Shown piece by piece: positions 2,122-20,872 of a DNA stretch of 22,060 bases; position 1 is the stretch's first letter, and each line of letters starts with the position of its first letter. Location of the stretch: the IMG/VR virus record IMGVR_UViG_3300032050_000899, positions 1 through 22,060 of that record, one strand, 5' to 3'. The position numbers and the translations under genes are program-made. The DNA is from a virus. Below the pieces are notes generated by a model. That model saw nothing but the letters and a program-made list of their open reading frames with translations. It had not been told where the DNA came from and searched no databases.

Positions 2122-4056
2122 ATGTCAAGAACTATTGAAAACCCATATGAAAACTTTATTGCATTGTCTAGATATGCAAGATGGATTCCAGAAGAAAATC
2201 GTCGTGAAACATGGGGTGAGACAGTAGATCGCTATTTTGACTTTATGACAAAACATCTTAAAGAAACTAAAGATTATATTCCAGATTCAAAACTTCTTCA
2301 AGAAATGAAAGAGGCGGTTTATAATAGAGATGTAATGCCATCAATGAGATCAGTAATGACTGCAGGTGCTGCATTAGATAGAGATCATGTTGCGGGTTAT
2401 AATTGCTCGTTTGTTCCAGTAGATTCACCACGCTCATTTGACGAAACAATGTATATTCTTATGTGCGGAACAGGCGTAGGGTTCTCTGTTGAATATAAAT
2501 ATGTTAATAAACTTCCTCCCGTTCCAGAAACTTTAGAAAAGTCTACGACTGTAATTACTGTTGAAGATTCAAAGCAGGGTTGGGCTAAAGCATATCGTGA
2601 GCTACTTGCATTATTATGGTCAGGACATATTCCTTCTGTTGATGTAAGCAAACTTCGCCCATCTGGTGCTCGACTTAAGACAATGGGCGGAAGATCATCT
2701 GGTCCACAGCCACTTATCAACCTATTTGACTTTACTATTTCAAAGTTTAAATCTGCAACAGGACGACAGCTAAAACCAATTGAAGCACATGATATTATGT
2801 GTAAGATTGGAGAAATTGTTGTAGTTGGAGGAGTCCGTAGATCAGCAATGATCTCTTTGTCAAATATTAATGACATTGAAATGGCTCAAGCAAAATCTGG
2901 GAACTGGTGGGAAAACAATTCACAACGTGCACTTTCAAATAACTCTGTTGCTTACTCACGTAAGCCAGAAATGGAGCAATTTATTGCAGAATGGAAATCT
3001 CTTTATGACTCGAAGTCTGGCGAACGTGGAATCTATAATGTTGCGGCAGCGCAGAAGCAGGCAGCGAAGTATGGCCGTAGAGACCCTGAAATCCATTATG
3101 GAACAAACCCGTGTTCCGAAATTATTCTCCGTCCTTATCAGTTTTGTAATCTTTCAGAAGTCGTATTACGTGAAAAGGATACAGTTGAGGATATTTCAAA
3201 TAAAGTACGTCTTGCAACAATTCTTGGAACTTGGCAATCAACGCTAACAGACTTTAAGTATCTTCGTAAAATCTGGAAAGATAACACAGAAGAAGAGCGT
3301 TTATTAGGAGTTTCTTTAACTGGACAATTCGGACATAAATTCTTCTCAGGTAAACAAGATATCAAGAAATTAGAAGAAGTTTTAGTTGGACTTCGTGAAT
3401 ACGCAAGAACAATTAATTCAGAAGAGGCTCAGAAGATTGGGATTCAAGAGTCTGCTGCTATCACATGTGTAAAGCCTTCTGGAACAGTTTCCCAATTGGT
3501 CGGGGTGTCTTCAGGAATGCATGCATGGCATTCACCATATTATATTCGTACAGTACGTGGCTCAAAAGGAGATCCAATCTCTACATTTTTAAAGGAGGTC
3601 GGAATTCCAGTAGAAGATGATGTTATGAAGCCAAACGATACATACGTATTTTCATTTCCAGTTAAGGCACCAGAGGGTGCGATTGTTAGAAATGATTTAA
3701 CAGCAATAGAGCATTTAAATACTTGGCTTGTTTATCAACGTGCATGGTGTGAGCACAAGCCTTCAATCACTGTATCTGTAAAAGAAGATGAATGGATGGA
3801 AGTAGGAGCTTGGGTATACAAGCATTTTGATGAAGTTTCTGGAATCTCATTCTTGCCACACTCTGATCATACTTATAAGCAGGCTCCATACCAAGAAGTT
3901 ACAAAAGAAGAATACGAAGCAGTTTTAGCACAAATGCCAAAATCGATTCGTTGGGAAGATTTGTCTTTCTACGAAACAGAGGACGGAACTTCTGGAACAC
4001 AGACCCTTGCCTGTACATCAGATGGCAATTGTGAGATAGTAGATATATCAGCTTAG
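2122..4056 (+). CDS. nrdJ: Adenosylcobalamin-dependent (class II) ribonucleotide reductase, monomeric RTPR type
   Basis: This 644-residue enzyme reduces ribonucleotides to deoxyribonucleotides using a cobalamin-generated thiyl radical, supplying DNA precursors for phage replication. Visible catalytic residues are Cys95 (GYNCSF) and Cys342 (QFCNLSE), the reducing pair; Cys331, the radical cysteine; and Asn329 and Glu333 in the motif NPCSE. The 11-residue spacing from radical to reducing cysteine equals that of the Lactobacillus leichmannii enzyme (Cys408/Cys419, known). The C-terminal pair Cys631/Cys637 (CTSDGNC) fits the shuttle that re-reduces the active site. At 644 residues it is shorter than the roughly 740-residue bacterial enzyme, as is common in phages. 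Its arginine codons include many CGT/CGC, unlike the AGA-dominated oxygenase block. No thioredoxin or cobalamin gene accompanies it here. Confidence 0.93.
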   Translation: MSRTIENPYENFIALSRYARWIPEENRRETWGETVDRYFDFMTKHLKETKDYIPDSKLLQEMKEAVYNRDVMPSMRSVMTAGAALDRDHVAGYNCSFVPVDSPRSFDETMYILMCGTGVGFSVEYKYVNKLPPVPETLEKSTTVITVEDSKQGWAKAYRELLALLWSGHIPSVDVSKLRPSGARLKTMGGRSSGPQPLINLFDFTISKFKSATGRQLKPIEAHDIMCKIGEIVVVGGVRRSAMISLSNINDIEMAQAKSGNWWENNSQRALSNNSVAYSRKPEMEQFIAEWKSLYDSKSGERGIYNVAAAQKQAAKYGRRDPEIHYGTNPCSEIILRPYQFCNLSEVVLREKDTVEDISNKVRLATILGTWQSTLTDFKYLRKIWKDNTEEERLLGVSLTGQFGHKFFSGKQDIKKLEEVLVGLREYARTINSEEAQKIGIQESAAITCVKPSGTVSQLVGVSSGMHAWHSPYYIRTVRGSKGDPISTFLKEVGIPVEDDVMKPNDTYVFSFPVKAPEGAIVRNDLTAIEHLNTWLVYQRAWCEHKPSITVSVKEDEWMEVGAWVYKHFDEVSGISFLPHSDHTYKQAPYQEVTKEEYEAVLAQMPKSIRWEDLSFYETEDGTSGTQTLACTSDGNCEIVDISA

Positions 4057-9941: not shown

Positions 9942-10826
9942 ATGGCAGCAGGTAAAAGAACAGGTAAAGTTTCAGGTCAGATAAGTCAGCCAGAAGCAGT
10001 AGTTATATCTAGCGCAACAGATGTTGGGACATCAAGACCATATCTAGCAACAGCAAATACAACTTCTGAGGCAAATGCGGCTGGAACTGGTGGAGCTGTC
10101 ACATTAACATTTGCAGTTCCTTCTGGATCTGCATCAGCATCCTCATTTACAATTACAACAACTCCAAGCACATATACTGTAACAGCTTCTTCAAGCCCAT
10201 ATACATTCCAAGGCCTTGCCTCTAATACAGCATATACATTTACAATTGTTGCAAATAGCGCAGTAGGGTCTTCTGCATCCACAACATCATCTTCAGTAAC
10301 AGCAACGACTGTTCCTCAAGCAATTCAGACAGCTTCAGTTACTTCAACAGTTGCAAATAGAGATGATATTACATGGGATGCTCCAGCAACTGGAGGAAAA
10401 GCTATAGCAAGTTATACAGTGACTTCTACAGATGGACCTTCGTATACTGGAATTCTTGTAACTTCAAAGAATATTGATGAAACTGGTGGATCTGCACAAA
10501 GCTATGATATATATGCTCTTAATGCCAACGGTACATCTGTGGCAAAAAGAGTTGGACCAGTTACTACATTCTTCTCTCCACCGAGCTTCTTCGGTCCACC
10601 TACTTTCTTTGGTCCACCTACTTTCTTTGGTCCGCCAAACTTCTTTGGTCCGCCAAACTTCTTTGGTCCGCCAAACTTCTTTGGTCCACCTACTTTCTTC
10701 GGTCCACCTACTTTCTTCGGTCCGCCAGGGTTCTTCGGTCCGCCAGGGTTCTTTTCTCCTCCTTCATTCTGTTCTTTCCAGTGTCCATATGGAACATACT
10801 GTGAAGGCAATTCATGTATCGGTTAA
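9942..10826 (+). CDS. Fibronectin-III protein with FFGPPX repeats and Cys-rich tail
   Basis: This 294-residue protein has an N-terminal region of about 35 residues. A fibronectin type III domain follows at about 50-125 (TFQGLASNTAYTFTIVANSAVGSS), then a second diverged one at about 128-208 (DDITWDAPATGGKAIASYTV). Next come eleven tandem hexapeptides FFGPPX (about 210-275; X = T, N, G or S). The end is a four-cysteine stretch, CSFQC-PYGTYC-EGNSC. The first and last hexapeptides read FFSPPS, so the array is symmetric. Fibronectin domains on phage surfaces often bind carbohydrate weakly. The aromatic/proline array could be a sticky or rigid rod, and the cysteines suggest disulfides outside the cell. 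GGAG precedes the ATG. It is the last appendage gene before the oxygenase block. I know of no characterised homologue of the repeat. Confidence 0.8.
   Translation: MAAGKRTGKVSGQISQPEAVVISSATDVGTSRPYLATANTTSEANAAGTGGAVTLTFAVPSGSASASSFTITTTPSTYTVTASSSPYTFQGLASNTAYTFTIVANSAVGSSASTTSSSVTATTVPQAIQTASVTSTVANRDDITWDAPATGGKAIASYTVTSTDGPSYTGILVTSKNIDETGGSAQSYDIYALNANGTSVAKRVGPVTTFFSPPSFFGPPTFFGPPTFFGPPNFFGPPNFFGPPNFFGPPTFFGPPTFFGPPGFFGPPGFFSPPSFCSFQCPYGTYCEGNSCIG
10569..10766 (+). repeat. Tandem 18-bp repeat, 11 units, encoding FFGPPX
   Basis: The eleven in-frame 18-base units vary mainly at the sixth codon and at wobble positions (TTC/TTT, CCA/CCG, GGT). Sixth residues run S,T,T,N,N,N,T,T,G,G,S. Adjacent units with the same X are nearly identical at DNA level, which points to local duplication by slippage or unequal exchange. 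Copy number is likely to vary among relatives. Confidence 0.95.
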
Positions 10827-10866: not shown

Positions 10867-11289
10867 ATGACAAGCAAATATGCTTTGTGCATAGAAATAG
10901 AAGAAGGTCTATACGAAATATTTGATATATTGTATTTTGAAAAAGATACAGATATAGATAAACGGTATAGGGAGTCAATTGCTATGGGATCAAAGGCTAT
11001 TATGGCCCCAGACCTTAATAATATTAAGATAGGCGCCACGTTAGTAGATAATAAATTTATGATTGATAATCAAGAAGGTGTTAGAGAGTTTAATCCCAAT
11101 GATATTGCTTACGTGTTCTTGTCAAACAATAAAATTTTTGGTATCATATCTATGGATAAAGATAGTATCAATTCTGCAAAGTACAGAGCAGCTTTTGATG
11201 GCAATGTGATTATAGTAGATGTTTCCAAAGAAGATTCCGTTGGATTTGGAGATATCTGGGACTCTAGCAAAAATTTAATATTAAAATAG
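10867..11289 (+). CDS. Hypothetical protein, start of the oxygenase block
   Basis: This 140-residue acidic protein is not recognised. It alternates short predicted strands and helices (YALCIEIEEGLYEIFDILYFEK; VIIVDVSKEDSVGFGDIWDSS) and has no signal peptide or membrane segment. A GAAAG ribosome site precedes the ATG. A 6-bp inverted repeat, CTTACA/TGTAAG (10827-10846), with TATAGT inside its right half, lies in the short gap before it and could hold a promoter. Base composition turns visibly more AT-rich from here on. Confidence 0.65.
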   Translation: MTSKYALCIEIEEGLYEIFDILYFEKDTDIDKRYRESIAMGSKAIMAPDLNNIKIGATLVDNKFMIDNQEGVREFNPNDIAYVFLSNNKIFGIISMDKDSINSAKYRAAFDGNVIIVDVSKEDSVGFGDIWDSSKNLILK

Positions 11290-11301: not shown

Positions 11302-11547
11302 ATGATGTCTAAATGGAAAGAATGGAAAGAAAGTTTAGGTGATTCTAGGCCATGGCACTTAATTGACCCAAATAAAAAAATACGTGAGCAGTCAATTATA
11401 GATAAAAGAATGAGTCTTTGCATGGGCTGTGAATTTTTTTTGCCGACAAAACAGTGCGATAAATGTAAATGCTATATGCCTGCAAAAACAACTCTTTCAA
11501 ATGCTGAGTGTCCTATAGGTAAATGGCATAGAGAAGATCAAGAATAA
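11302..11547 (+). CDS. Six-cysteine putative metal-binding protein
   Basis: The cysteines of this 81-residue protein are at 40, 43, 52, 55, 57 and 70, in the pattern C-x2-C-x8-C-x2-C-x-C...CPIGKW. The N-terminal half is Trp/Lys-rich and helical. The pattern resembles small zinc-ribbon-like phage proteins ending in CPxGKW. Zinc is the likely ligand, though a rubredoxin-like iron site cannot be excluded. Two ATG codons in tandem make the start uncertain by one residue. It ends one base before the first oxygenase gene, so it is co-translated with it and may assist those enzymes (inference). Confidence 0.75.
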   Translation: MMSKWKEWKESLGDSRPWHLIDPNKKIREQSIIDKRMSLCMGCEFFLPTKQCDKCKCYMPAKTTLSNAECPIGKWHREDQE

Positions 11548-11548
11548 T

Positions 11549-12157
11549 ATGATAAAAAATATAATTGGTCCAGGTATAGTAGTATATAAAAATATTTTTT
11601 TAAAATCTATGAATTTAGTAGAAAGATATGAGCAAAATATAGGAGATTCTTGGGCTAAAGCTAAAACCAATGAAAGTTCCCTATATCAAGGTGAAGGTAG
11701 ATTTTGTCAATCTTTTGTGTATAGCAACATTTCTTTAGATAAAGAGGCAAAAAACTCAAAAGAGTTGTTAGAGTTATACGATGAAGTAATGATAAAAATT
11801 AAAGAATGTTTGTTAGACTATGAAAAAGATTATCCAGTTAAAGTAGAATATTTTGAAGCATTAAATGTTATTAAATACTCTGTAAATAATTTTTTTAATT
11901 ATCATACAGATGACGGACCAGATGTTAGATACACTGTCTCCTGTGTAGGATATCTAAATGATGAATACGATGGAGGAAACCTCCACTTTAAATTCTTTGA
12001 CATTAACTATCAGCCAGAGTCTGGAGATTTAGTAGTTTTCCCATCTGCTTATATATATGCACATGCAGCATATCCAATTAAAGCGGGAACAAAATATGTA
12101 TTGGCCTTAATGACCGATAGAACACAAAAGGGTCACAGAAGTGACCAATATAAATAA
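11549..12157 (+). CDS. 2-oxoglutarate/Fe(II) oxygenase, prolyl-4-hydroxylase type (1 of 6)
   Basis: This 202-residue protein has a double-stranded beta-helix oxygenase core. Iron ligands are His119 and Asp121 (YHTDD) and His172 (YAHAAYP), and the 2-oxoglutarate-binding lysine is Lys182, ten residues after the distal His as in prolyl 4-hydroxylases. The signature GYLNDEYDGGNLHF lies between them. It should hydroxylate a substrate, coupled to decarboxylation of 2-oxoglutarate with O2. No signal peptide is seen, so it acts in the host cytoplasm. The N-terminus starts IIGPGIVVYKNIF, as in the next gene, so the two are close paralogues. Protein side chains are the usual substrates of this subfamily, but the actual one is unknown. 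Confidence 0.88.
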   Translation: MIKNIIGPGIVVYKNIFLKSMNLVERYEQNIGDSWAKAKTNESSLYQGEGRFCQSFVYSNISLDKEAKNSKELLELYDEVMIKIKECLLDYEKDYPVKVEYFEALNVIKYSVNNFFNYHTDDGPDVRYTVSCVGYLNDEYDGGNLHFKFFDINYQPESGDLVVFPSAYIYAHAAYPIKAGTKYVLALMTDRTQKGHRSDQYK

Positions 12158-12169
12158 ATTGGAGTATAA

Positions 12170-12835
12170 ATGTTAAGTAATGCTGAATTTCTAGGTCCAG
12201 GTATTGTTGTCTATAGAAATGTATTTACGCCAGAAATGAATTTAATTAATAGACTAGAAGAAACTTTATCAGATAGCTCTGATGTAAATCAATGGAAAAC
12301 TGCAAAAACTGGATATGCCTTGGTAGATAAAAGATATAGAGATTGTTCAGATTTTAAAATTAAAAAAAATACATGGGATGATGCTGGTAAAAGTGAGTCT
12401 ACTCTAAAGTTAGAAAAAATTTGGGAAGATTCGTACAAGGTACAGTTAGCTCCAGTAGAAGACTATAGACAAATGTTTGGCTTGGCTCCTCTAAACTATT
12501 GGGAATCATTTAACTTTATTAAATATGGCCAAGATCAACATTTTCAAATTCATTCAGATCACGGATATTCTTATATATGCGTACTTTCTTCAGTTGGATA
12601 TATTAATGACGACTACGAAGGAGGCGAGCTATTTTTTGACAAATTTAATTTAAAAATAAAGCCCAGGGCGGGAGATCTTTATTTATTCCCCTCATCATTT
12701 ATATATTCTCATGCTGCGATGCCAGTAACTTCTGGCACTAAATACTCTATAGTTACCATGCTTGATTATTTAGAAGCACCACATACTCCAGAATACAGAG
12801 AGATCGAAAAAAGATATACAGAGAATTATGTATGA
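12170..12835 (+). CDS. 2-oxoglutarate/Fe(II) oxygenase, prolyl-4-hydroxylase type (2 of 6)
   Basis: This 221-residue enzyme has iron ligands His128, Asp130 (IHSDHG) and His181 (SHAAMP) and the co-substrate residue Lys191. The core signature is YINDDYEGGELFF. The N-terminus FLGPGIVVYRNVF and the distal motif HAAxPxxxGTKY mark it as the nearest relative of the preceding gene, suggesting tandem duplication followed by divergence. GGAG lies 5 bases upstream of the ATG, one of the better ribosome sites of the block. The stop overlaps the next gene by 8 bases. Confidence 0.88.
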   Translation: MLSNAEFLGPGIVVYRNVFTPEMNLINRLEETLSDSSDVNQWKTAKTGYALVDKRYRDCSDFKIKKNTWDDAGKSESTLKLEKIWEDSYKVQLAPVEDYRQMFGLAPLNYWESFNFIKYGQDQHFQIHSDHGYSYICVLSSVGYINDDYEGGELFFDKFNLKIKPRAGDLYLFPSSFIYSHAAMPVTSGTKYSIVTMLDYLEAPHTPEYREIEKRYTENYV

Positions 12836-13523
12836 TATTTTAGTTTATAAAAATACAGAAGATTCTGCTAATATATCTCAGCTTTCCGTAAAAAGAGATT
12901 GGATGGATAATACTGTAGATGCCCATGCCTATAAATGTTTTCCAGTTACACTTACAAATTCGCTGGGATGGGGAATATCATACCCAGAAGATATATCTTT
13001 TGTCTGGGATGGAATATCAGATACGTCTAGTCATCACGTTAGGGTTCTTTCGGGGCATAAATATTGTAATTTAGGCAGAGCAAATGGAACAATAAGCTTC
13101 AAGACAGGTTTGGTTTTTAGAACTAATGAAAACACTACTTTGTTGCAAATGCCCGTACCTAATTTATTTACAGATGAATATCAATCATTTACAACTCTTA
13201 TAAGCACCTCATTTTTTCAAGGAGAACTTCCCTGCGCTTTAAGAATATTAAAGCCAAATCAAATAATAACAATTAAAGCAAATACTCCAATTTCATCTAT
13301 AATTCCAATATCTTTATCAGAAATTCAAGGGTCTTGTGTTTCTTATTCTGGAATAGAGATATTAAAGCCCAGTCAATATGGTGAAAAACATTTAGATATA
13401 GTAAAAGAAAAAACTTCTAAGGGACTATGGACAAACTTTTACAGAGACGCTATAGACCCAGAAGGAAATAAATTAGGTAACCATGAAGTAAAATCAATTA
13501 AATTAAAGGTGATTGAAAAATAA
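12828..13523 (+). CDS. Unknown conserved phage protein, paralogue A (possibly DUF6065-like)
   Basis: This 231-residue protein has no oxygenase motif. It has a beta-rich pattern: FPVTLTNSLGWGISYPEDISFVWDG, then a long strand region, then TPISSIIPIS. The same order of elements is seen in the next gene (CPALLDIFLSGYYLTTPCDIMF ... GTPYLQIFPF). The two are therefore probably paralogues of one fold, perhaps a cupin/jelly-roll. I recall such proteins as the DUF6065 group of environmental phages, but cannot confirm it. The gene overlaps the upstream oxygenase by 8 bases and ends one base before the next gene, so it belongs to the operon. Confidence 0.7.
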   Translation: MYDILVYKNTEDSANISQLSVKRDWMDNTVDAHAYKCFPVTLTNSLGWGISYPEDISFVWDGISDTSSHHVRVLSGHKYCNLGRANGTISFKTGLVFRTNENTTLLQMPVPNLFTDEYQSFTTLISTSFFQGELPCALRILKPNQIITIKANTPISSIIPISLSEIQGSCVSYSGIEILKPSQYGEKHLDIVKEKTSKGLWTNFYRDAIDPEGNKLGNHEVKSIKLKVIEK

Positions 13524-13524
13524 T

Positions 13525-14256
13525 ATGAATAAAAAAATAACATTTGTTTCTCATCAATTATACAACAATGATAACCCAGACCTTTCCCCCAAGCCAGGAA
13601 AAAGACAAGTTCCCAAATGGTTTTCTTCTGCAAATAAGTATTGGAAGGAAGAAGGAAAGGAAGAAGTTTTAAGGCACCAATGGGGCTCAGAAATACTTGG
13701 GTTTAAGTCTTGCCCAGCCTTGCTAGACATATTTTTAAGCGGATACTACTTAACGACACCCTGTGACATTATGTTTTATAAGGATACACAAAACAATTTA
13801 TTGTTGGCTAAAACTGAGCCAGGATATGAAAGCTTTATTGGGTCTAGGGTTCCAATGGAAGGGTTTGAGGTTCCTTATGGATACGAAGCACAACATTTTC
13901 ATTGGTATCCAAATTGGGGAGTTAAATTAGAAAAGGGTTATAGTGCAATTTTTATGTCTCCAATGAATAGATATGATTTACCTTTTATAACTACTGCTGG
14001 TATAATAGATAGCGATATGTTAGAAATACCAGGCCTTACTCCATTTTTTTTAAGAAAAGATTTTTCTGGTTTATTGCCAGCAGGAACACCATATCTTCAA
14101 ATATTTCCATTTAAAAGAGAAGATTGGAATATGGAATTAGATTATAAAGAAGAACAAGAAATGAATGAAATAAAAAATAAAGCTTCAAAAATTTTGAGAA
14201 CAACTGAAAACGGACAATATAAAAAGAAATTATGGCAAAGAAAGGTATACGAATGA
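13525..14256 (+). CDS. Unknown conserved phage protein, paralogue B (possibly DUF6065-like)
   Basis: This 243-residue protein has an N-terminal segment PGKRQVPKWFSSANKYW and a core SCPALLDIFLSGYYLTTPCDIMFY. A tract NWGVKLEKGYSAIFMSPMNR and the segment LLPAGTPYLQIFPFKRE follow, and the tail is lysine/glutamate-rich. The core aligns by eye with the preceding gene. The start at 13525 is chosen because an upstream in-frame TTG would lie inside the previous gene, and AAAGGTG lies about 13 bases ahead of the ATG. The stop TGA shares bases with the next start (ATGA), a hallmark of coupled translation. It is probably a partner or a separate modifying/binding protein in the oxygenase block; no catalytic residues are recognised. 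Confidence 0.72.
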   Translation: MNKKITFVSHQLYNNDNPDLSPKPGKRQVPKWFSSANKYWKEEGKEEVLRHQWGSEILGFKSCPALLDIFLSGYYLTTPCDIMFYKDTQNNLLLAKTEPGYESFIGSRVPMEGFEVPYGYEAQHFHWYPNWGVKLEKGYSAIFMSPMNRYDLPFITTAGIIDSDMLEIPGLTPFFLRKDFSGLLPAGTPYLQIFPFKREDWNMELDYKEEQEMNEIKNKASKILRTTENGQYKKKLWQRKVYE

Positions 14257-14942
14257 TACAAGATGCTAATCAAAAGGTTCAAGAGAGAGTAAGGTACGCC
14301 AGGAAGTCAATTACTCCATCAGGTTATTTTGGAAACTCTTCAGATAATATCGTAGAATTAGAAAATTTTATGACAATTGAAGAGCAAGAATACCTTTTAA
14401 ATTTTGCTAAAAATAACACATTGTGGGATATAACGGAGTCACAATGGAATGAAAATGGCAACATCATATACGACCACAGGGTTTGGGAAAATCGTGTTGC
14501 AACAGTTGGAACATTGAAAAAGGCTGACGAAAAAGTAATTGAAATACTAGAGAACTTAACAAATAGAATGCAGCCTATTATCGAAGAAAAATTTAATGTT
14601 ACAGTTCAACCAGCTGCACCAGCCATAGTAAGATGGCCAGTTGGAACCATGCAATTCCCACACGCAGATAAAGAACTTCATGAAGGTCCAGACGCTGGAA
14701 CAGAAAACGAATTTCCTTGGTATGACATAGGAACAGTATTCTATATTAATGATGACTATGTTGGAGGAGAACTATATTTTCCTAAGCAGAGCATAGTGTT
14801 TAAAACTAAGGCCAGGGGAGCATATTTTTTCCCTGGAGACATGCACTATATTCATGGAGTTAATGTTGTTAAAGAAGGATGTAGGTATACATTCCCGCTT
14901 TTTTGGACAGTTACGGAATTAGAAAGAGATAAGCATGAGTAA
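14253..14942 (+). CDS. 2-oxoglutarate/Fe(II) oxygenase (3 of 6)
   Basis: This 229-residue enzyme has iron ligands His137, Asp139 (PHADK) and His201 (YIHGVN). The 2-oxoglutarate-binding position is Arg211 instead of Lys. The core signature is YINDDYVGGELYF. The start at 14253 forms the ATGA overlap with the preceding stop and has AGAAAGG 7 bases upstream. An in-frame ATG seven codons earlier (14232) has no good ribosome site. The N-terminal 90 residues differ from enzymes 1 and 2, with a charged helix and the stretch NIVELENFMTIEEQEYLL. That suggests a different substrate pocket. It overlaps the next gene by 8 bases. Confidence 0.87.
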   Translation: MIQDANQKVQERVRYARKSITPSGYFGNSSDNIVELENFMTIEEQEYLLNFAKNNTLWDITESQWNENGNIIYDHRVWENRVATVGTLKKADEKVIEILENLTNRMQPIIEEKFNVTVQPAAPAIVRWPVGTMQFPHADKELHEGPDAGTENEFPWYDIGTVFYINDDYVGGELYFPKQSIVFKTKARGAYFFPGDMHYIHGVNVVKEGCRYTFPLFWTVTELERDKHE

Positions 14943-15717
14943 TGAATTTGATTTTTTTGAAATTTATCCGATGGTTGATGTTTACAAAAACCTACTTCCA
15001 GATTCAAAAAAAATGGCAGAAATAGTTAAAGAATCTTATGCATCTTCAAAAGGTAAATATTATTTAAGAGAATGGGACCAGTGGTCGATATTTGGAGCCT
15101 ATACTCAGCAAAAACATGATCCAAACGAACCAAGAGAACACGGTCAAATGTACGATGACGAAAAGTATTTGTCTGACTCTGTTTATGCGGCTTATTCAAA
15201 AGCAATATTTGATTATGTAAAAAGACATAATTTAAATCTTCCCGAAGGTGCCTCACTTCTTACATCATCATTTTCAAAATATGATACGAATATTGATGTA
15301 ATGAATAATAATATGTCCATGCAATATCACACAGATTATGTGATTTCAGAAAAAGATATGCCAGGGCCTAAGTTCTTTTTAACATGCACAACCTATCTTA
15401 ATGACGATTATACTGGTGGAGAAATAGAGTTTTTATTGGATGGGGAAACGTATCCTTATAAGCCAGACTCTGGAGATATTTTGGTTTTCCCATCAGGAGA
15501 ACCTTATTTCCATGGAGTTAAAACAATTACATCAGGGGAAAAATTTTTTGTAAGAAACTTTGTTTTTTATCCATATGCTGGCTCGGAAGAATGGTTAAAG
15601 AATCAAAGGCATTATGGTGCGGTTCGTTGGGCTAAAATGGAAGAAGAAAGACTTGAAATAGAAAACCCTAAAAACATGAGATATCATAAGATGGAGGAAA
15701 AGCATGAAAATTACTAA
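14935..15717 (+). CDS. 2-oxoglutarate/Fe(II) oxygenase (4 of 6)
   Basis: This 260-residue enzyme is the longest of the set. Iron ligands are His132, Asp134 (YHTDY) and His193 (YFHGVK), and the co-substrate lysine is Lys203. The core signature is YLNDDYTGGEIEF. It has a C-terminal extension of about 45 residues rich in charged and aromatic residues (EEWLKNQRHYGAVRWAKMEEE) that the shorter paralogues lack. This could bind a partner. It overlaps its neighbours by 8 bases upstream and 14 bases downstream. Confidence 0.88.
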   Translation: MSNEFDFFEIYPMVDVYKNLLPDSKKMAEIVKESYASSKGKYYLREWDQWSIFGAYTQQKHDPNEPREHGQMYDDEKYLSDSVYAAYSKAIFDYVKRHNLNLPEGASLLTSSFSKYDTNIDVMNNNMSMQYHTDYVISEKDMPGPKFFLTCTTYLNDDYTGGEIEFLLDGETYPYKPDSGDILVFPSGEPYFHGVKTITSGEKFFVRNFVFYPYAGSEEWLKNQRHYGAVRWAKMEEERLEIENPKNMRYHKMEEKHENY

Positions 15718-16411
15718 GCACAAAGAAGATGTTTTCCATGTGTCAGACGTTGTAACCAAAGAAGAAGCTAATAAGATAATTAGATATTTAGAATTTTTAG
15801 CAGAGTCAAATCTTTTAAAATGGAATCAAATATCTTTTTATGACTCATATGCAATGGGATTCTGGGAGTCAGATCCAAAGCTGGTGATGTTTGACTTGCC
15901 CCCAGACTATTTTGCTAGACTTAATTCTAGAATAAAAGATGCGTGCGAAAAGGTTTTAGGTAAAGATCTTTCTGAGGTTAGTTATCATGCACAGAAGTGG
16001 ATAGAAGGAGCATTTGCCTCATTTCACTCAGATAACTCAGACGATGAAGGCAATCCAACAGCATTTGAAAGAAGCAAGTATGCAGCATTTATGTATTTAA
16101 ATGATGATTTTACTGGAGGAATATTAAACTTTAAAAATTATGATATTAGTATAAAGCCAGAGATAGGCATGCTTGCAGTATTTGCGGGAGGTCATGGAAA
16201 TGAGCATGAAGTTACACAAATTAAAAGTGGTACAAGATATACAATAGGCTCGTTTTGGGATAATGCAGATTCAGTTTATACTGATGAGCAGAGAAAAAAA
16301 TGGGCTGACGAATTGGCAGAAGTAAGAAAAGCTCAAGACGAAGAATATAAATTATGGGCAGAAGATAAAGAAAAGGGTCTAAGACCAAACTATAAAGGCA
16401 AAAACGAATAA
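15704..16411 (+). CDS. 2-oxoglutarate/Fe(II) oxygenase (5 of 6)
   Basis: This 235-residue enzyme has iron ligands His108, Asp110 (FHSDNSD) and His168 (NEHEVT), and Arg178 at the co-substrate position. The core signature is YLNDDFTGGILNF. The distal-histidine region reads GGHGNEHEV and differs from the aromatic FPS/FPG context of the other five. The C-terminal 45 residues form a charged helix (DEQRKKWADELAEVRKAQDEE). GGAGG lies just upstream of the ATG, within the end of enzyme 4. Confidence 0.87.
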   Translation: MKITKHKEDVFHVSDVVTKEEANKIIRYLEFLAESNLLKWNQISFYDSYAMGFWESDPKLVMFDLPPDYFARLNSRIKDACEKVLGKDLSEVSYHAQKWIEGAFASFHSDNSDDEGNPTAFERSKYAAFMYLNDDFTGGILNFKNYDISIKPEIGMLAVFAGGHGNEHEVTQIKSGTRYTIGSFWDNADSVYTDEQRKKWADELAEVRKAQDEEYKLWAEDKEKGLRPNYKGKNE

Positions 16412-16414
16412 CAA

Positions 16415-16963
16415 ATGAATACTCAAAAGCTAGAGGACAATATATATTATTATACAGAACTTTTTGAGAATAAAAACGAGTATATAGATTTATTAAAAGA
16501 CCCTTCGCTTGATTGGAAAGATTGGTTCTCCAGCGATGGATTAATTCATTATGGTCACTCCATTGGAGGAAACCCGAAGTTATCAGATCATATTTTAAAT
16601 CCAATTAAAGATTTAGTATATAAATGCTTGAAAGACTACACAGCAAATACAGGCCTATCTTTTGGATGGATACCAGAGTTTTATAGAATTCAAAAATATT
16701 CTACAAATGCTTATATGGGCCCACATGTAGACTCAATAGATAAGACAGCATTAAAATCACCAACTATATCTATAGTTTTGTATTTAAATGAAGACTACGA
16801 AGGTGGAAACATATGCTTTCCAGAACAAGGACTTGATATTAAACCAAAGGCTGGGAGTATGATTATATTTCCTTCATATCCACCATACTACCACGATCCA
16901 AAACCAGTAACAAAAGGCACTAAATATATGTGTCCTATATTTTGTTTCAAGGAGCCTTTCTAA
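16415..16963 (+). CDS. 2-oxoglutarate/Fe(II) oxygenase (6 of 6)
   Basis: At 182 residues this is the shortest and nearest to a minimal catalytic core. Iron ligands are His104, Asp106 (GPHVDS) and His160 (YYHDPKP), and the co-substrate lysine is Lys170. The core signature is YLNEDYEGGNICF, followed by KPKAGSMIIFPS. The N-terminus has a helical region ending in the strand WIPEFYRIQKYSTNAYMG. It begins 3 bases after enzyme 5 and is the last gene of the block; the LamG-type virion gene starts 14 bases after its stop. Confidence 0.88.
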   Translation: MNTQKLEDNIYYYTELFENKNEYIDLLKDPSLDWKDWFSSDGLIHYGHSIGGNPKLSDHILNPIKDLVYKCLKDYTANTGLSFGWIPEFYRIQKYSTNAYMGPHVDSIDKTALKSPTISIVLYLNEDYEGGNICFPEQGLDIKPKAGSMIIFPSYPPYYHDPKPVTKGTKYMCPIFCFKEPF

Positions 16964-16971
16964 GGTATAAT
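16942..16971 (+). promoter_or_regulatory. Promoter before the LamG-type gene
   Basis: A weak -35 (TTGTTT, 16942-16947) is followed after 18 bases by a perfect TATAAT (16966-16971). It lies over the end of the last oxygenase gene and only 6 bases before the ATG at 16978, so its transcript would be close to leaderless. Confidence 0.35.
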
Positions 16972-16977
16972 CTTATT

Positions 16978-18885
16978 ATGTCTTATAAATACTCAGTCAT
17001 AAAAGATAATCCACTTGGGTTTTGGTTTCTAGATGAACAGTCTGGAACTACTGCTATAGATATATCTGGTTGTGGAAATAATGGCGTATATTTACAATCT
17101 GTTTCTACTTTTCCTCTGCCACTCACATATGGCGGAATAAATTCTGTAGAAATAACTAGCTCACAAAGTATAACTTTTCCACTAACATATAACTATTATG
17201 GAATAAGTAAAGGTACCCCAATAGCAAATAGTAGCTATTCTTTTAACCCATTTACGATAGAGTCTTTTATCTATCCAAAAGCTTTAACATCAACAATGGA
17301 ACCAGTAGTTGCAGATGCATCAAACGGAGTCGGACTTTTTGTGAACAATAATGGCGTGGCATTTGCACTAAAAGGTTTATCTAATATTGATTCTAGAGTA
17401 GATTTTGCCATATCTAATTTTAGCCGTGTGGTACATGTTGTATGTGTTTATTCGGTGTCAGAAATATCAATATACATAGATGGAGAAAAACAAGCTTCAA
17501 AAACATTAAATGATTTTAAATTTACAAATTCATCTTTGTCACTAAAATGCGGACCCACTTCTAATTCATCAAATAAGTTTTTAGTTGATTCTGTAGCTAT
17601 ATATAGATATTCTTTATCAGAATCTCAAATACAAAATCATTATAATTTAGCTCAGTCACTACCAGCATTTAATACGACCTTTCCAGACCTTGGAGAGCTG
17701 TTTGACATATACGATACAAATATATCAACTAAGTTTGAGTATTCCTACCCAGCAAGAAAACCCTGGAAAGATTTAACTACAGCAGGACTAGAGTATGATT
17801 TTATAAAAAATAGAATACAAATTCCTGTTGGATCTGGAACTTCTCAGTCTGCATTTTTTACTGAGTTTTTATATATACCATCACAATATGGAATAGACGC
17901 TTCCAAGATAGAATGGTCTGCGACAGAAGGAGTATCCGTATACTCAAGTGTTGATGGAATAACCTATGTTGAATGTGAGAATGGCTCTAAAATACCACAG
18001 TATGGAAATTCTACTAGCGGAGAAGATTTTAATGCATCGTATAGCCTTTATATAAAGGTGCTTTTTGAGACAGCAAACGATAAAACAAATAATCCTTTTA
18101 TGGAAAGCCTTACAATTAAGTTTTATAAATCACAGATTATTTATGCTACAAACTCTTCTAGTTACATATCACAAATGACAGATGACCCCGACTATTTTGC
18201 AAAAGCATATGCGGGAAATAAAAGATACTCAGCTTTATCAAGGAATATGCATAGTGGAATACGAGTAAAAGAAAACTCTGGATTCTATTTAAATCTAGGA
18301 AGACTTTGCACATCAATGGAGTTTTTCTATACTCCAAAAGATCTATCTGGCGGAGGTCTTGTATACAGAGAAGAAATTACTTTTATAGAGGTCCTAGGAG
18401 GACTATATAACACCTCATACACTGGATTGGCTGTGGCAGACGGTGGGCTATATAATTCTTCTTATACGGCCTCCTATGACGCAGGGCCAGCAAGTCCAGA
18501 CATAGGGGTAGAATATACATGGGCATCATCTGGAACAATAACTAAAAATAATATAAAAAAGATATATATAAACGGAGTAGATAAAACATCTCAAACATCA
18601 ATATCAAATGTTTTTAAGGCTGGTGAAATTTATCACGTAGTCCTGGTTTTTGATAATCAAATCATGAACTCAGTTAAGCTAGGATATTCCCTTGATGGGG
18701 CTTCAGAGTCTTCATATCAATATATATCTACATACGGCTATGAGCTAGATTCTGCAACAGTTACTGATCATTATCAAATTTATATAAATGGAGACCCTAC
18801 TGTTATATCTGAACCGTCATTCTCCCTGACAGAAAATACAGCCGAAGTATTCGATAATGACTGGATTGTGATCCAAAACGTTTAA
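16978..18885 (+). CDS. LamG/concanavalin-A-like virion protein
   Basis: This 635-residue protein has a jelly-roll LamG-type domain at about residues 1-220. It opens PLGFWFLDEQSGTTAIDISGCGNNGVYLQ and contains VVHVVCVYSVSEISIYIDGE. A central beta region follows, then a second ConA-like region at about 400-635 with a short internal repeat, GGLYNTSYT/GGLYNSSYT. Such domains on virions usually bind sugars or form spikes. The ATG at 16978 is chosen over an in-frame GTG at 16930 inside the previous gene, because the domain starts right at this ATG. An AAGG ribosome site is weak. It separates the oxygenase block from the head genes and is likely a tail or head decoration. Confidence 0.78.
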   Translation: MSYKYSVIKDNPLGFWFLDEQSGTTAIDISGCGNNGVYLQSVSTFPLPLTYGGINSVEITSSQSITFPLTYNYYGISKGTPIANSSYSFNPFTIESFIYPKALTSTMEPVVADASNGVGLFVNNNGVAFALKGLSNIDSRVDFAISNFSRVVHVVCVYSVSEISIYIDGEKQASKTLNDFKFTNSSLSLKCGPTSNSSNKFLVDSVAIYRYSLSESQIQNHYNLAQSLPAFNTTFPDLGELFDIYDTNISTKFEYSYPARKPWKDLTTAGLEYDFIKNRIQIPVGSGTSQSAFFTEFLYIPSQYGIDASKIEWSATEGVSVYSSVDGITYVECENGSKIPQYGNSTSGEDFNASYSLYIKVLFETANDKTNNPFMESLTIKFYKSQIIYATNSSSYISQMTDDPDYFAKAYAGNKRYSALSRNMHSGIRVKENSGFYLNLGRLCTSMEFFYTPKDLSGGGLVYREEITFIEVLGGLYNTSYTGLAVADGGLYNSSYTASYDAGPASPDIGVEYTWASSGTITKNNIKKIYINGVDKTSQTSISNVFKAGEIYHVVLVFDNQIMNSVKLGYSLDGASESSYQYISTYGYELDSATVTDHYQIYINGDPTVISEPSFSLTENTAEVFDNDWIVIQNV

Positions 18886-19291: not shown

Positions 19292-20872
19292 ATGGAACAT
19301 GTTGATGAAACCCCAGAAGTAAATGAAGAAATTCAGCTATCTAGTGCTGCTGATTGGTTTTCTTTTAAGAAAGAAACAGAGCATGATGATCCATTTAATA
19401 TTCAATTAGATGACATTAGAAAGCTAAACGGATTAAGCCCAGCATTTCGCAGAAAAATAGGCAGAGAATTTTCTAAAGCCTTTACTGGAATAGATAGTAC
19501 ATCAACACAGCAAAACTTGCTAGCACAGGCAATAACTGGTTACGCCATGTTTGATCTGGTTCAGCCAATATATAACTTAGAGTATCTATCAAAAATTTAT
19601 GAAGTTTCAACATATAACTACGCAGCAATAAATGCAAAAGTTGCAAACATTGTAGGTCTAGGATATCAATTCGATGAGACAAGAAAAACAAACGATGCCC
19701 TTGACGGAATCACAGATGAAAAACAATTACAGAGAGCCAGAAAAAAGCTTGGCAAATTAAGACAAGATTTAGAGCAGTGGCTAGAGGATGTAAATGATGA
19801 AGAAACATTTACAGAAACTCTTATTAAAGCGTATACAGATTTAGAAGCAACTGGTAATGGCTTTATTGAAATAGGCAGAACAACTCGTGGAGATATTGGA
19901 TACATTGGACATATTCCAGCAAAGACAATGCGTGTAAGAAGATTACGTGATGGCTTTATTCAGTTGCTTTACGGAAAGGCTGTTTTCTTCAGAAACTTTG
20001 GCGATCAAGATACACCGAATCCAATTGCTGGCGGACTAGATAGACCAAACGAAATTATTCATTTAAAGAAATATACTCCTATGGATAATTACTACGGTAT
20101 TCCAGATATTATTGCTGCACAAGTAGCTCTTGCAGGAAATGAATTTTCTGGTCAGTACAACCTTGACTATTTCCAGAACAAGGCTGTTCCAAGATATATT
20201 ATTACTGTTAAGGGTGCCAAACTTTCACCAGAGTCAGAAAGAAAATTGCTTGAGTTTTTCCAGGTTGGACTAAAGGGCAAAAACCATAGGTCTCTTTATG
20301 TCCCTCTTCCACCAGATACGCCTGACTCAAAGGTTGAATTTAAAATGGATCCAATTGAGGCTGGAGCACAGGAATCATCATTTAATGTTTATCGTAAAGC
20401 AAATAGAGATGAAATTCTTTTAGCACACAGAACTCCAATTTCTAAAATTGGTATTCCAGAAGGAATTAATTTAGCTGCAGCAAGAGATGCGGATAAAACA
20501 TTTAAAGAGCAGGTTTGTCGCCCAGCACAAATGAGATTAGAGAAAAAAATTAATTTAATTATTGCTGAAAAAACAGATGCCGTTCAAATTAAATTTAATG
20601 AACTTAGCCTTACAGATGAAGATACTCAGTCAAAGATTGATGAGAGATATTTAAGAATGCAGGTTATTACCCCTAATGAAGTTCGTCTAAGAATGGGTAA
20701 AATTGCAATTGAAGGCGGAGATGAAGTTATTCAATTAAAGCCTCAGCAGCAGGCAGAAATTAGAGCTCAGGCTGGACAGACAAGAACTAGGGATCAAGAA
20801 AGACAAAATAATTCTCCAGATATTTCTGGGGAAGCCAGGAATCCAAAAGGTGACGGAAGTCAGGTAGAATAA
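19292..20872 (+). CDS. Phage portal protein
   Basis: This 526-residue protein forms the dodecameric ring at the capsid vertex through which DNA is packaged and ejected. Typical features of HK97/PBSX-type portals are visible. The N-terminal part reads YEVSTYNYAAINAKVANIVGLGYQF. The centre carries GNGFIEIGRTTRGDIGYIGHIPAKTMRVRR and HLKKYTPMDNYYGIPDI. The helical region FSGQYNLDYFQNKAVPRYIITVKGAKL leads into HRTPISKIGIPEG, and the C-terminus is Gln/Arg-rich. GGGAG precedes the ATG. It is followed by the protease-scaffold gene, the canonical head-module order. Confidence 0.92.
   Translation: MEHVDETPEVNEEIQLSSAADWFSFKKETEHDDPFNIQLDDIRKLNGLSPAFRRKIGREFSKAFTGIDSTSTQQNLLAQAITGYAMFDLVQPIYNLEYLSKIYEVSTYNYAAINAKVANIVGLGYQFDETRKTNDALDGITDEKQLQRARKKLGKLRQDLEQWLEDVNDEETFTETLIKAYTDLEATGNGFIEIGRTTRGDIGYIGHIPAKTMRVRRLRDGFIQLLYGKAVFFRNFGDQDTPNPIAGGLDRPNEIIHLKKYTPMDNYYGIPDIIAAQVALAGNEFSGQYNLDYFQNKAVPRYIITVKGAKLSPESERKLLEFFQVGLKGKNHRSLYVPLPPDTPDSKVEFKMDPIEAGAQESSFNVYRKANRDEILLAHRTPISKIGIPEGINLAAARDADKTFKEQVCRPAQMRLEKKINLIIAEKTDAVQIKFNELSLTDEDTQSKIDERYLRMQVITPNEVRLRMGKIAIEGGDEVIQLKPQQQAEIRAQAGQTRTRDQERQNNSPDISGEARNPKGDGSQVE

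Follow-up and report, generated by a model that had tools for sequence, protein, structure and literature searches.

A probable virion-modification cassette in an uncultured phage: six prolyl-hydroxylase-type oxygenases beside a Phe-Pro repeat gene

The chlorovirus PBCV-1 reportedly encodes a prolyl 4-hydroxylase (P4H) with peptide substrates, which Eriksson et al. are said to have proposed, in 1999, to act on proline-rich repeats of viral proteins. Here we describe a stretch of viral DNA, the 22,060-base linear IMG/VR record IMGVR_UViG_3300032050_000899 (the window, analysed over its whole length), in which six P4H-type 2-oxoglutarate (2OG)/Fe(II) oxygenase genes lie just downstream of a gene for a protein with Phe-Pro repeats. 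As in PBCV-1, for which a proline-rich repeat protein in the same virus is also said to exist, the window pairs virus-encoded P4H with such a protein (positions 9942-10826, eleven FFxPP repeats). PBCV-1, however, is an algal virus with a single enzyme, whereas the window holds an array beside one repeat gene, and we know of no DUF6065 partner of the PBCV-1 enzyme. The closest solved relatives by profile are the prolyl 3- and 4-hydroxylases 8k0e, 3itq and 5hv0; these are associated with collagen-type sequence, whereas the proposed substrate here is a set of FF-PP repeats in a phage setting. Cyanophages carry members of the same superfamily (phrog_61), numerous 2OG-Fe(II) oxygenases being counted in 14 of 16 genomes in a passage of PMC3037559, but all 199 matching cultured records are below 60% identity to gene B of the window. 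The use of viral P4H is called cryptic in a passage of PMC9301287, PMC9611531 appears as part of the same literature on viral P4H and phage 2OG-Fe(II) oxygenases, and, according to a passage in a paper on phage collagen-like proteins (PMC3368898), the prolyl hydroxylases that collagen requires are absent from bacteria and viruses. The pairing of a P4H array with a Phe-Pro repeat is undescribed in the titles and abstract openings listed by our literature search, outside which most subscription papers lie, and among the matches listed for FFGPP, FFSPP or FFAPP none looks phage-related by title.

The array occupies positions 11549-16963, on the plus strand. An earlier note on this DNA had described here six P4H-type oxygenases in a coupled operon, and we found six intact, deeply diverged open reading frames (ORFs): A (11549-12157), B (12170-12835), E (14232-14942), F (14935-15717), G (15704-16411) and H (16415-16963). 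The stretch holds eight genes in all, however, as two non-oxygenase genes, C (12828-13523) and D (13525-14256, with an alternative TTG start possible at 13513), had been overlooked. Adjacent genes from A to H overlap or lie at most 12 bases apart, as expected of a coupled operon. Five of the oxygenases match PF13640 at 34.9-48.2 bits, above the Pfam cut-off of 27 (A 5.5e-10, B 2.2e-12, F 6.8e-9, G 3.2e-8, H 4e-12), while E scores 18.9 bits, under that cut-off, and matches phrog_61 (2.7e-10) and phrog_2297 (2.2e-12). When aligned, all six keep the HxD motif and the distal His; ten positions further on stands Lys in A, B, F and H and Arg in E and G, and the note had already stated the triad and a Lys or Arg at this spacing. 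Its signature YxNDDxxGG, claimed for every gene, is exact in four and reads YLNDEYDGG in A and YLNEDYEGG in H; similarly, the N-terminal halves do differ, yet A is 37% identical to B across an alignment of 206 residues. With their catalytic residues complete, the six enzymes look catalytically competent, in agreement with the first assessment. That this exceeds chance is indicated by the selection ratios given below and by 976 distinct P4H proteins of at least 150 residues (the window's six included): 919 keep all four catalytic residues, 2 do not, and 55 are only partly aligned. The best profile matches in the PDB, under their deposited names, are Prolyl 3-hydroxylase 1 (3e-12) and Prolyl 4-hydroxylase (2.9e-11), with further matches to PKHD-type hydroxylases (1.3e-8) and Egl nine homolog 1 (1.5e-5). 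Gene G also matches weakly the peptide-modifying 2OG oxygenase YhhC (20.7 bits against a cut-off of 150). In PHROGs and GenBank, P4H-like proteins are named DNA endonuclease or ferrochelatase, labels that look wrong; the cases are phrog_2297, phrog_274, phrog_3531 and records of cyanophage ACG-2014f.

The gene upstream of the array, also on the plus strand, encodes a protein with an Fn3 domain (Pfam fn3, 3.3e-9), a C-terminal array of FFxPPx hexapeptides that starts at residue 210 (FFSPPS FFGPPT ... FFSPP, 10569-10763) and a Cys-containing tail. This protein is the substrate that we propose, and it is a probable appendage or surface protein. Its repeat is an 18-nucleotide unit with mixed synonymous codons; the collagen-like GXY triplet is absent, the repeat being a six-residue one, and it contains neither Lys nor Arg.

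Such arrays recur in related viral loci. We collected the best 80 of 105 viral relatives found with gene B (gene-B loci) and the best 80 of at least 532 relatives found with a profile of the six oxygenases (profile loci). Each of the gene-B loci has 4-9 P4H ORFs, some clipped by contig ends, and 70 of the 80 profile loci have three or more, with a maximum of 11. The earlier note, which had proposed a search for viral blocks of four or more such genes, considered six to be unusual; since the sampled loci hold blocks of 4-11, these are the rule and the window is not exceptional. Whole records in the group hold up to 15 PF13640 places, some of them under the cut-off (G023). The commonest gene order, Repeat-P-P-C-D-P-P-P-P (P, P4H), is found in 46 of 232 loci before dereplication.

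In order to examine the pairing with the repeat gene, we considered loci whose array holds at least three P4H and is preceded by 3 kb or more of upstream DNA. The repeat gene is present in all 55 gene-B loci that qualify (of 80) and in all 38 qualifying profile loci, both being counts of kin sequences that were not dereplicated. The second count includes five loci (L413, L424, L429, L440 and L446) in which an apparent frame change hides the repeat gene from ordinary ORF calls and which, read stop to stop, carry YFPP/FFPP repeats; otherwise it is 33 of 38. The 12 gene-B loci without a repeat gene all have less than 1 kb of upstream DNA. The end of the repeat gene lies a median of 64 bases from the first P4H (124 repeat ORFs).

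In the reverse direction, among the matches listed, scans with the repeat pattern gave an array ORF in 155 of 164 stretches, 8 of them cellular. P4H occurs within the stretch in 119 of the 147 viral ones and, after dereplication by a shared 80-mer, in 60 of 70 clusters. For 20 of the other 28 viral stretches P4H is found elsewhere on the record (3 of 9 and 17 of 19, 16 of the 17 over the Pfam cut-off), although several repeat stretches can share one record. We rejected cellular FFxPP genes as further cases: 11 genome contigs match the DNA pattern, but the 8 array ORFs look antisense or low-complexity by eye and P4H is found in none of their stretches. Cultured phages gave no BLAST match to the repeat, a weak test because of the low-complexity filter.

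As a control, we used 120 stretches, among the matches listed, with a generic tail-fibre motif also found in the window (median length 9.0 kb; the stretches of the repeat set have a median of 9.4 kb). P4H-like oxygenases are common in such phage tail loci, being present in 26 of the 120 stretches, but three or more are found in just 2, both with the repeat. Clustered into 111 groups, the control has P4H in 4 of 4 clusters with the repeat versus 22 of 107 without it (Fisher p 0.0025), and both clusters with three or more P4H carry the repeat (p 0.001). The four control loci with the repeat are L257, L267, L308 and L333; in the last, the contig begins inside the repeat and four motifs remain. 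For the control, P4H was searched for within the stretches, so the comparison with the repeat set is one of stretches.

The repeat itself comes in three flavours, each seen with arrays (FFxPPx, FFPP and FFPP+FFP), and in proteins with two N-terminal types. L257, for instance, has six P4H, a DUF6065-like gene and a D-like gene next to an Fn3 protein whose repeat is of the FFPP+FFP type. In L086 (9631-10284) the repeat array is followed by a Peptidase_S74 intramolecular chaperone domain (6.5e-10), which is usual in phage fibres. In L030, L037, L054, L057, L079 and L112, the region after the array resembles, by eye, a Hint/intein-type domain; of five Fn3-type repeat proteins scanned, however, only that of L057 matched Intein_splicing, and below the cut-off, so we do not retain this assignment. 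A contractile tail sheath in L429 was not confirmed. Small repeat genes are split over two frames in L413, L419, L424, L429, L440, L446, L086, L091, L178, L180, L197 and L249, where an N-terminal part of 25-42 codons and the repeat part can be joined by a +1 shift. The hexamer CGGAAC lies within the upstream ORF in 12 of 22 listed small repeat sequences, 16 of which are of the +1 type, and in the relatives L088 and L228 the gene reads through in a single frame. This could be a conserved programmed +1 frameshift. A similar two-frame arrangement of a related small repeat gene, at another site and without CGGAAC, occurs in L095, L096 and L130.

The six window paralogues are 2.4-5.6 substitutions per site apart, whereas at positions B, E and G the distance from the window copy to its counterparts in other loci is about 0.05-1.1 substitutions per site. 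We therefore reject a recent tandem duplication, because the distances between paralogues exceed those across loci. A and H are less clearly orthologous: outside the closest loci, what stands at the A position is in most cases less distant from window B (1.05-1.97) than from window A, and H copies are up to 2.9 substitutions per site from window H. Against the close loci L006-L010, ratios of nonsynonymous to synonymous rates (dN/dS) are 0.04-0.06 for B, 0.06-0.07 for E (L010 not computable), 0.07-0.08 for F, 0.08-0.10 for G, 0.10-0.22 for A and 0.13-0.28 for H, so that all six oxygenases are under purifying selection in this comparison. In 164 loci with five or more P4H and the repeat gene, a paralogue label could be given to B in 163, E in 163, G in 148, H in 137, F in 114 and A in 11, using score thresholds of our own choice and no dereplication; G and H labels are found in none of the 13 loci of pure FFPP flavour.

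The two non-oxygenase genes, also on the plus strand, accompany the arrays closely. C is a DUF6065 protein (PF19541, 2.1e-25) and D belongs to phrog_7084 (3.6e-33). Of the 232 loci that have at least three P4H, counted before dereplication, 227 hold C and 181 hold D; in dereplicated clusters with three or more P4H, C is present in 11 of 11 gene-B, 43 of 45 repeat, 2 of 2 control and 43 of 43 profile clusters. AlphaFold2 models of both have a high mean predicted local distance difference test score (C 93.8, D 92.6). The C model resembles dUTPases in Foldseek (3c2t, 8.6e-5) and in VIA (Z 10.9, root-mean-square deviation (rmsd) 5.4 over 122 aligned residues; Z 10.6, rmsd 2.6 over 116). The D model does so in VIA (Z 9.3, rmsd 2.7 over 121), its Foldseek matches being weak (best 4.0e-3, none under 0.001). 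Sequence signatures of dUTPases are missing: the Pfam dUTPase model gives no row for C or D at E-values up to 1, and a dUTPase motif III pattern occurs in none of the 99 C sequences and in one of the 66 D sequences. Against PDB sequences the C profile has insignificant matches, to a myristoyltransferase (0.12) and to the shrimp-virus dUTPase chain Wsv112 (0.35), and the D profile has none at E-values up to 10. C and D are thus predicted to have a dUTPase-like fold without dUTPase sequence signatures, and this fold, together with their co-occurrence with the arrays, suggests that they may be partners of the oxygenases. DUF6065 is named in no paper of the literature searched, and no match to two C proteins was found in cultured phages. 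Halophage HF1, the one halovirus examined, was rejected as a carrier of the module, as no oxygenase is annotated within 18.7 kb of its D relative.

We consider it likely, judging from sequence, that these genes form a phage cassette for virion modification, whose P4Hs would act by hydroxylating prolines in the repeat protein. What the sequences show is the set of genes, the completeness of the catalytic residues, purifying selection, a largely ordered conservation and the joint occurrence with the repeat gene, and from these we infer the activity, the substrate, a shared transcript, the role of C and D, and presence and effect in the virion. The repeat gene would yield an appendage protein with an Fn3 head and Phe-Phe/Pro-Pro repeats, and the oxygenases would probably be made from the same transcript. 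Using Fe(II), O2 and 2-oxoglutarate, they would hydroxylate the repeat prolines inside the infected cell, either ahead of assembly or in its course. The work would probably be split among the paralogues: since B and E occur with every repeat flavour and G and H with some, the enzymes may act on different prolines, at different ring positions or on successive products. The separate substrates or stepwise modification of virion proteins put forward by the earlier note fit the largely ordered paralogues and the constant repeat neighbour, but its other suggestion, host-surface precursors, is favoured by nothing that we found. C and D, with the predicted fold of trimeric dUTPases, may hold or present the repeat, and the hydroxylated repeat could be stiffer, show altered binding or be open to glycosylation. 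A more elaborate version, to which we give somewhat less than an even chance, is that a dedicated multi-enzyme line patterns hydroxyls on a Phe-Pro fibre rich in hydroxyproline, with B and E as core enzymes for all repeats, G, H and others as accessory ones for flavour-specific positions, and two repurposed dUTPase-fold trimers presenting the chain.

Several observations weigh against this reading. Array and repeat could occur together as parts of a single exchangeable tail cassette and not as enzyme and substrate, and our samples are kin: in clusters, the 80 gene-B loci amount to 11 or 12 and the 80 profile loci to 49. P4H was absent in 8 of the 28 whole-record checks, on records of 6.5-33.4 kb, and among the 17 positives of 19 one is under the Pfam cut-off. 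P4H is also present in 22 of the 107 control clusters in which no repeat was detected, so the family has other uses, and cultured cyanophages carry P4H genes for which a role in 2-oxoglutarate and nitrogen has been proposed. Some paralogues are unstable, with a clear label in 11 (A), 114 (F) and 137 (H) of 164 loci, and against the distant loci L013, L015 and L017 dN/dS rises to 0.31-0.70 for A, with maxima of 0.50 (F) and 0.31 (H), although there dS is saturated and orthology doubtful. Finally, a reference entry in PMC7019647 records no hydroxyproline detected in PBCV-1 particles, and virion modification is thus not a necessary function of viral P4H.

The cassette argument can be examined through the origin of the window. 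The portal protein (19292-20872, plus strand; Phage_portal, 1.8e-32) matches 259 cultured records, of which the 15 best listed are all from Streptomyces phages, at 55-59% identity. The Stanwilliamsviridae Streptomyces phages Muntaha and Gilson have, in the same order as the window, a glycosyltransferase (1045-2034 in the window), a ribonucleotide reductase (2122-4056), a large gene, a small gene and the portal. From this likeness the host is probably an actinobacterium. Both phages have an endolysin between the reductase and the large gene, and neither whole record has any PF13640 match; the tail-fibre plus oxygenase stretch therefore looks like an added cassette. Free loss of the block in relatives had been named beforehand as part of what would refute the note's reading: it is kept in the 80 closest gene-B relatives, themselves chosen by having gene B, but these two phages with a related portal do without it. 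Because they also have the glycosyltransferase, we do not favour the latter as a dedicated partner of the oxygenases. Between the window and L006-L008, dS is 0.08-0.13 for the portal and 0.32-1.54 for nine cassette genes, which fits exchange of the cassette by recombination. These data suit a rival in which repeat and oxygenases merely share a swappable tail cassette and the enzymes target a host surface protein, peptide or glycan. We hold this to be unlikely. The dS contrast is limited to the closest relatives, since the portal dS is 0.78 against L009 and 0.74 against L010, and the pairing persists across the three repeat flavours, the two N-terminal types and both P4H orientations. Further, arrays are rare in other tail loci, and the two found in the control both have the repeat.

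Alternatively, the enzymes could be auxiliary oxygenases that consume or sense 2-oxoglutarate and steer host nitrogen metabolism. NtcA-type control is cyanobacterial, however, and among cultured phages the window portal is closest to those of Streptomyces. Such a role was proposed for phage 2OG-Fe(II) oxygenases in a passage of PMC3037559 and is repeated in one of PMC4164917, and the frequency of P4H in repeat-free tail loci agrees with it. It leaves unexplained, however, both the adjacency of array and repeat in every qualifying locus and the ordered retention of several deeply diverged paralogues, and we consider it improbable. Still less credible to us is that the oxygenases and the two dUTPase-fold proteins form a set for modifying nucleic acids or nucleotides. 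The predicted models of C and D, the weak match of the C profile to Wsv112, the name DNA endonuclease on two matched PHROG families and the ribonucleotide reductase would fit it, but C and D lack the dUTPase signatures described above, the reductase is shared with the two Streptomyces phages that have no PF13640 match, and Tet-like enzymes match the oxygenase profile only at E-values of 0.19 or more.

The right part of the window runs, in order, through tail-fibre-type genes, the repeat gene, two small ORFs, genes A to H, a LamG protein, a 115-residue ORF, the portal and a prohead protease. The small ORFs, on the plus strand, encode 140 residues (10867-11289; no PHROG or NCBIfam match at 0.01) and 81 residues with Cys (11302-11547; a weak DUF6171 match of 21.7 bits, under the cut-off of 27). 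The LamG/ConA-like protein after the array lies on the same strand at 16930-18885 (scanned from 16978; Laminin_G_3, 8.8e-16). Further redox enzymes are present within the array blocks of two other loci, a glutathione-peroxidase-family protein in L413 (14755-15405) and a TauD-family dioxygenase in L446 (8502-9287).

The tight pairing with the repeat protein names a candidate substrate, and the question thus becomes one for a peptide assay. DUF6065 gains a genomic context and a predicted fold. If the virion-modification reading is true, phages would join the field of prolyl hydroxylation, with a repeat that is here not collagen, and if the multi-enzyme version is also true, the appendage would belong to a new class, built post-translationally and found in many uncultured phages. 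The recurrence of the array-repeat pairing in many phage sequences suggests that these viruses modify their own repeat protein.

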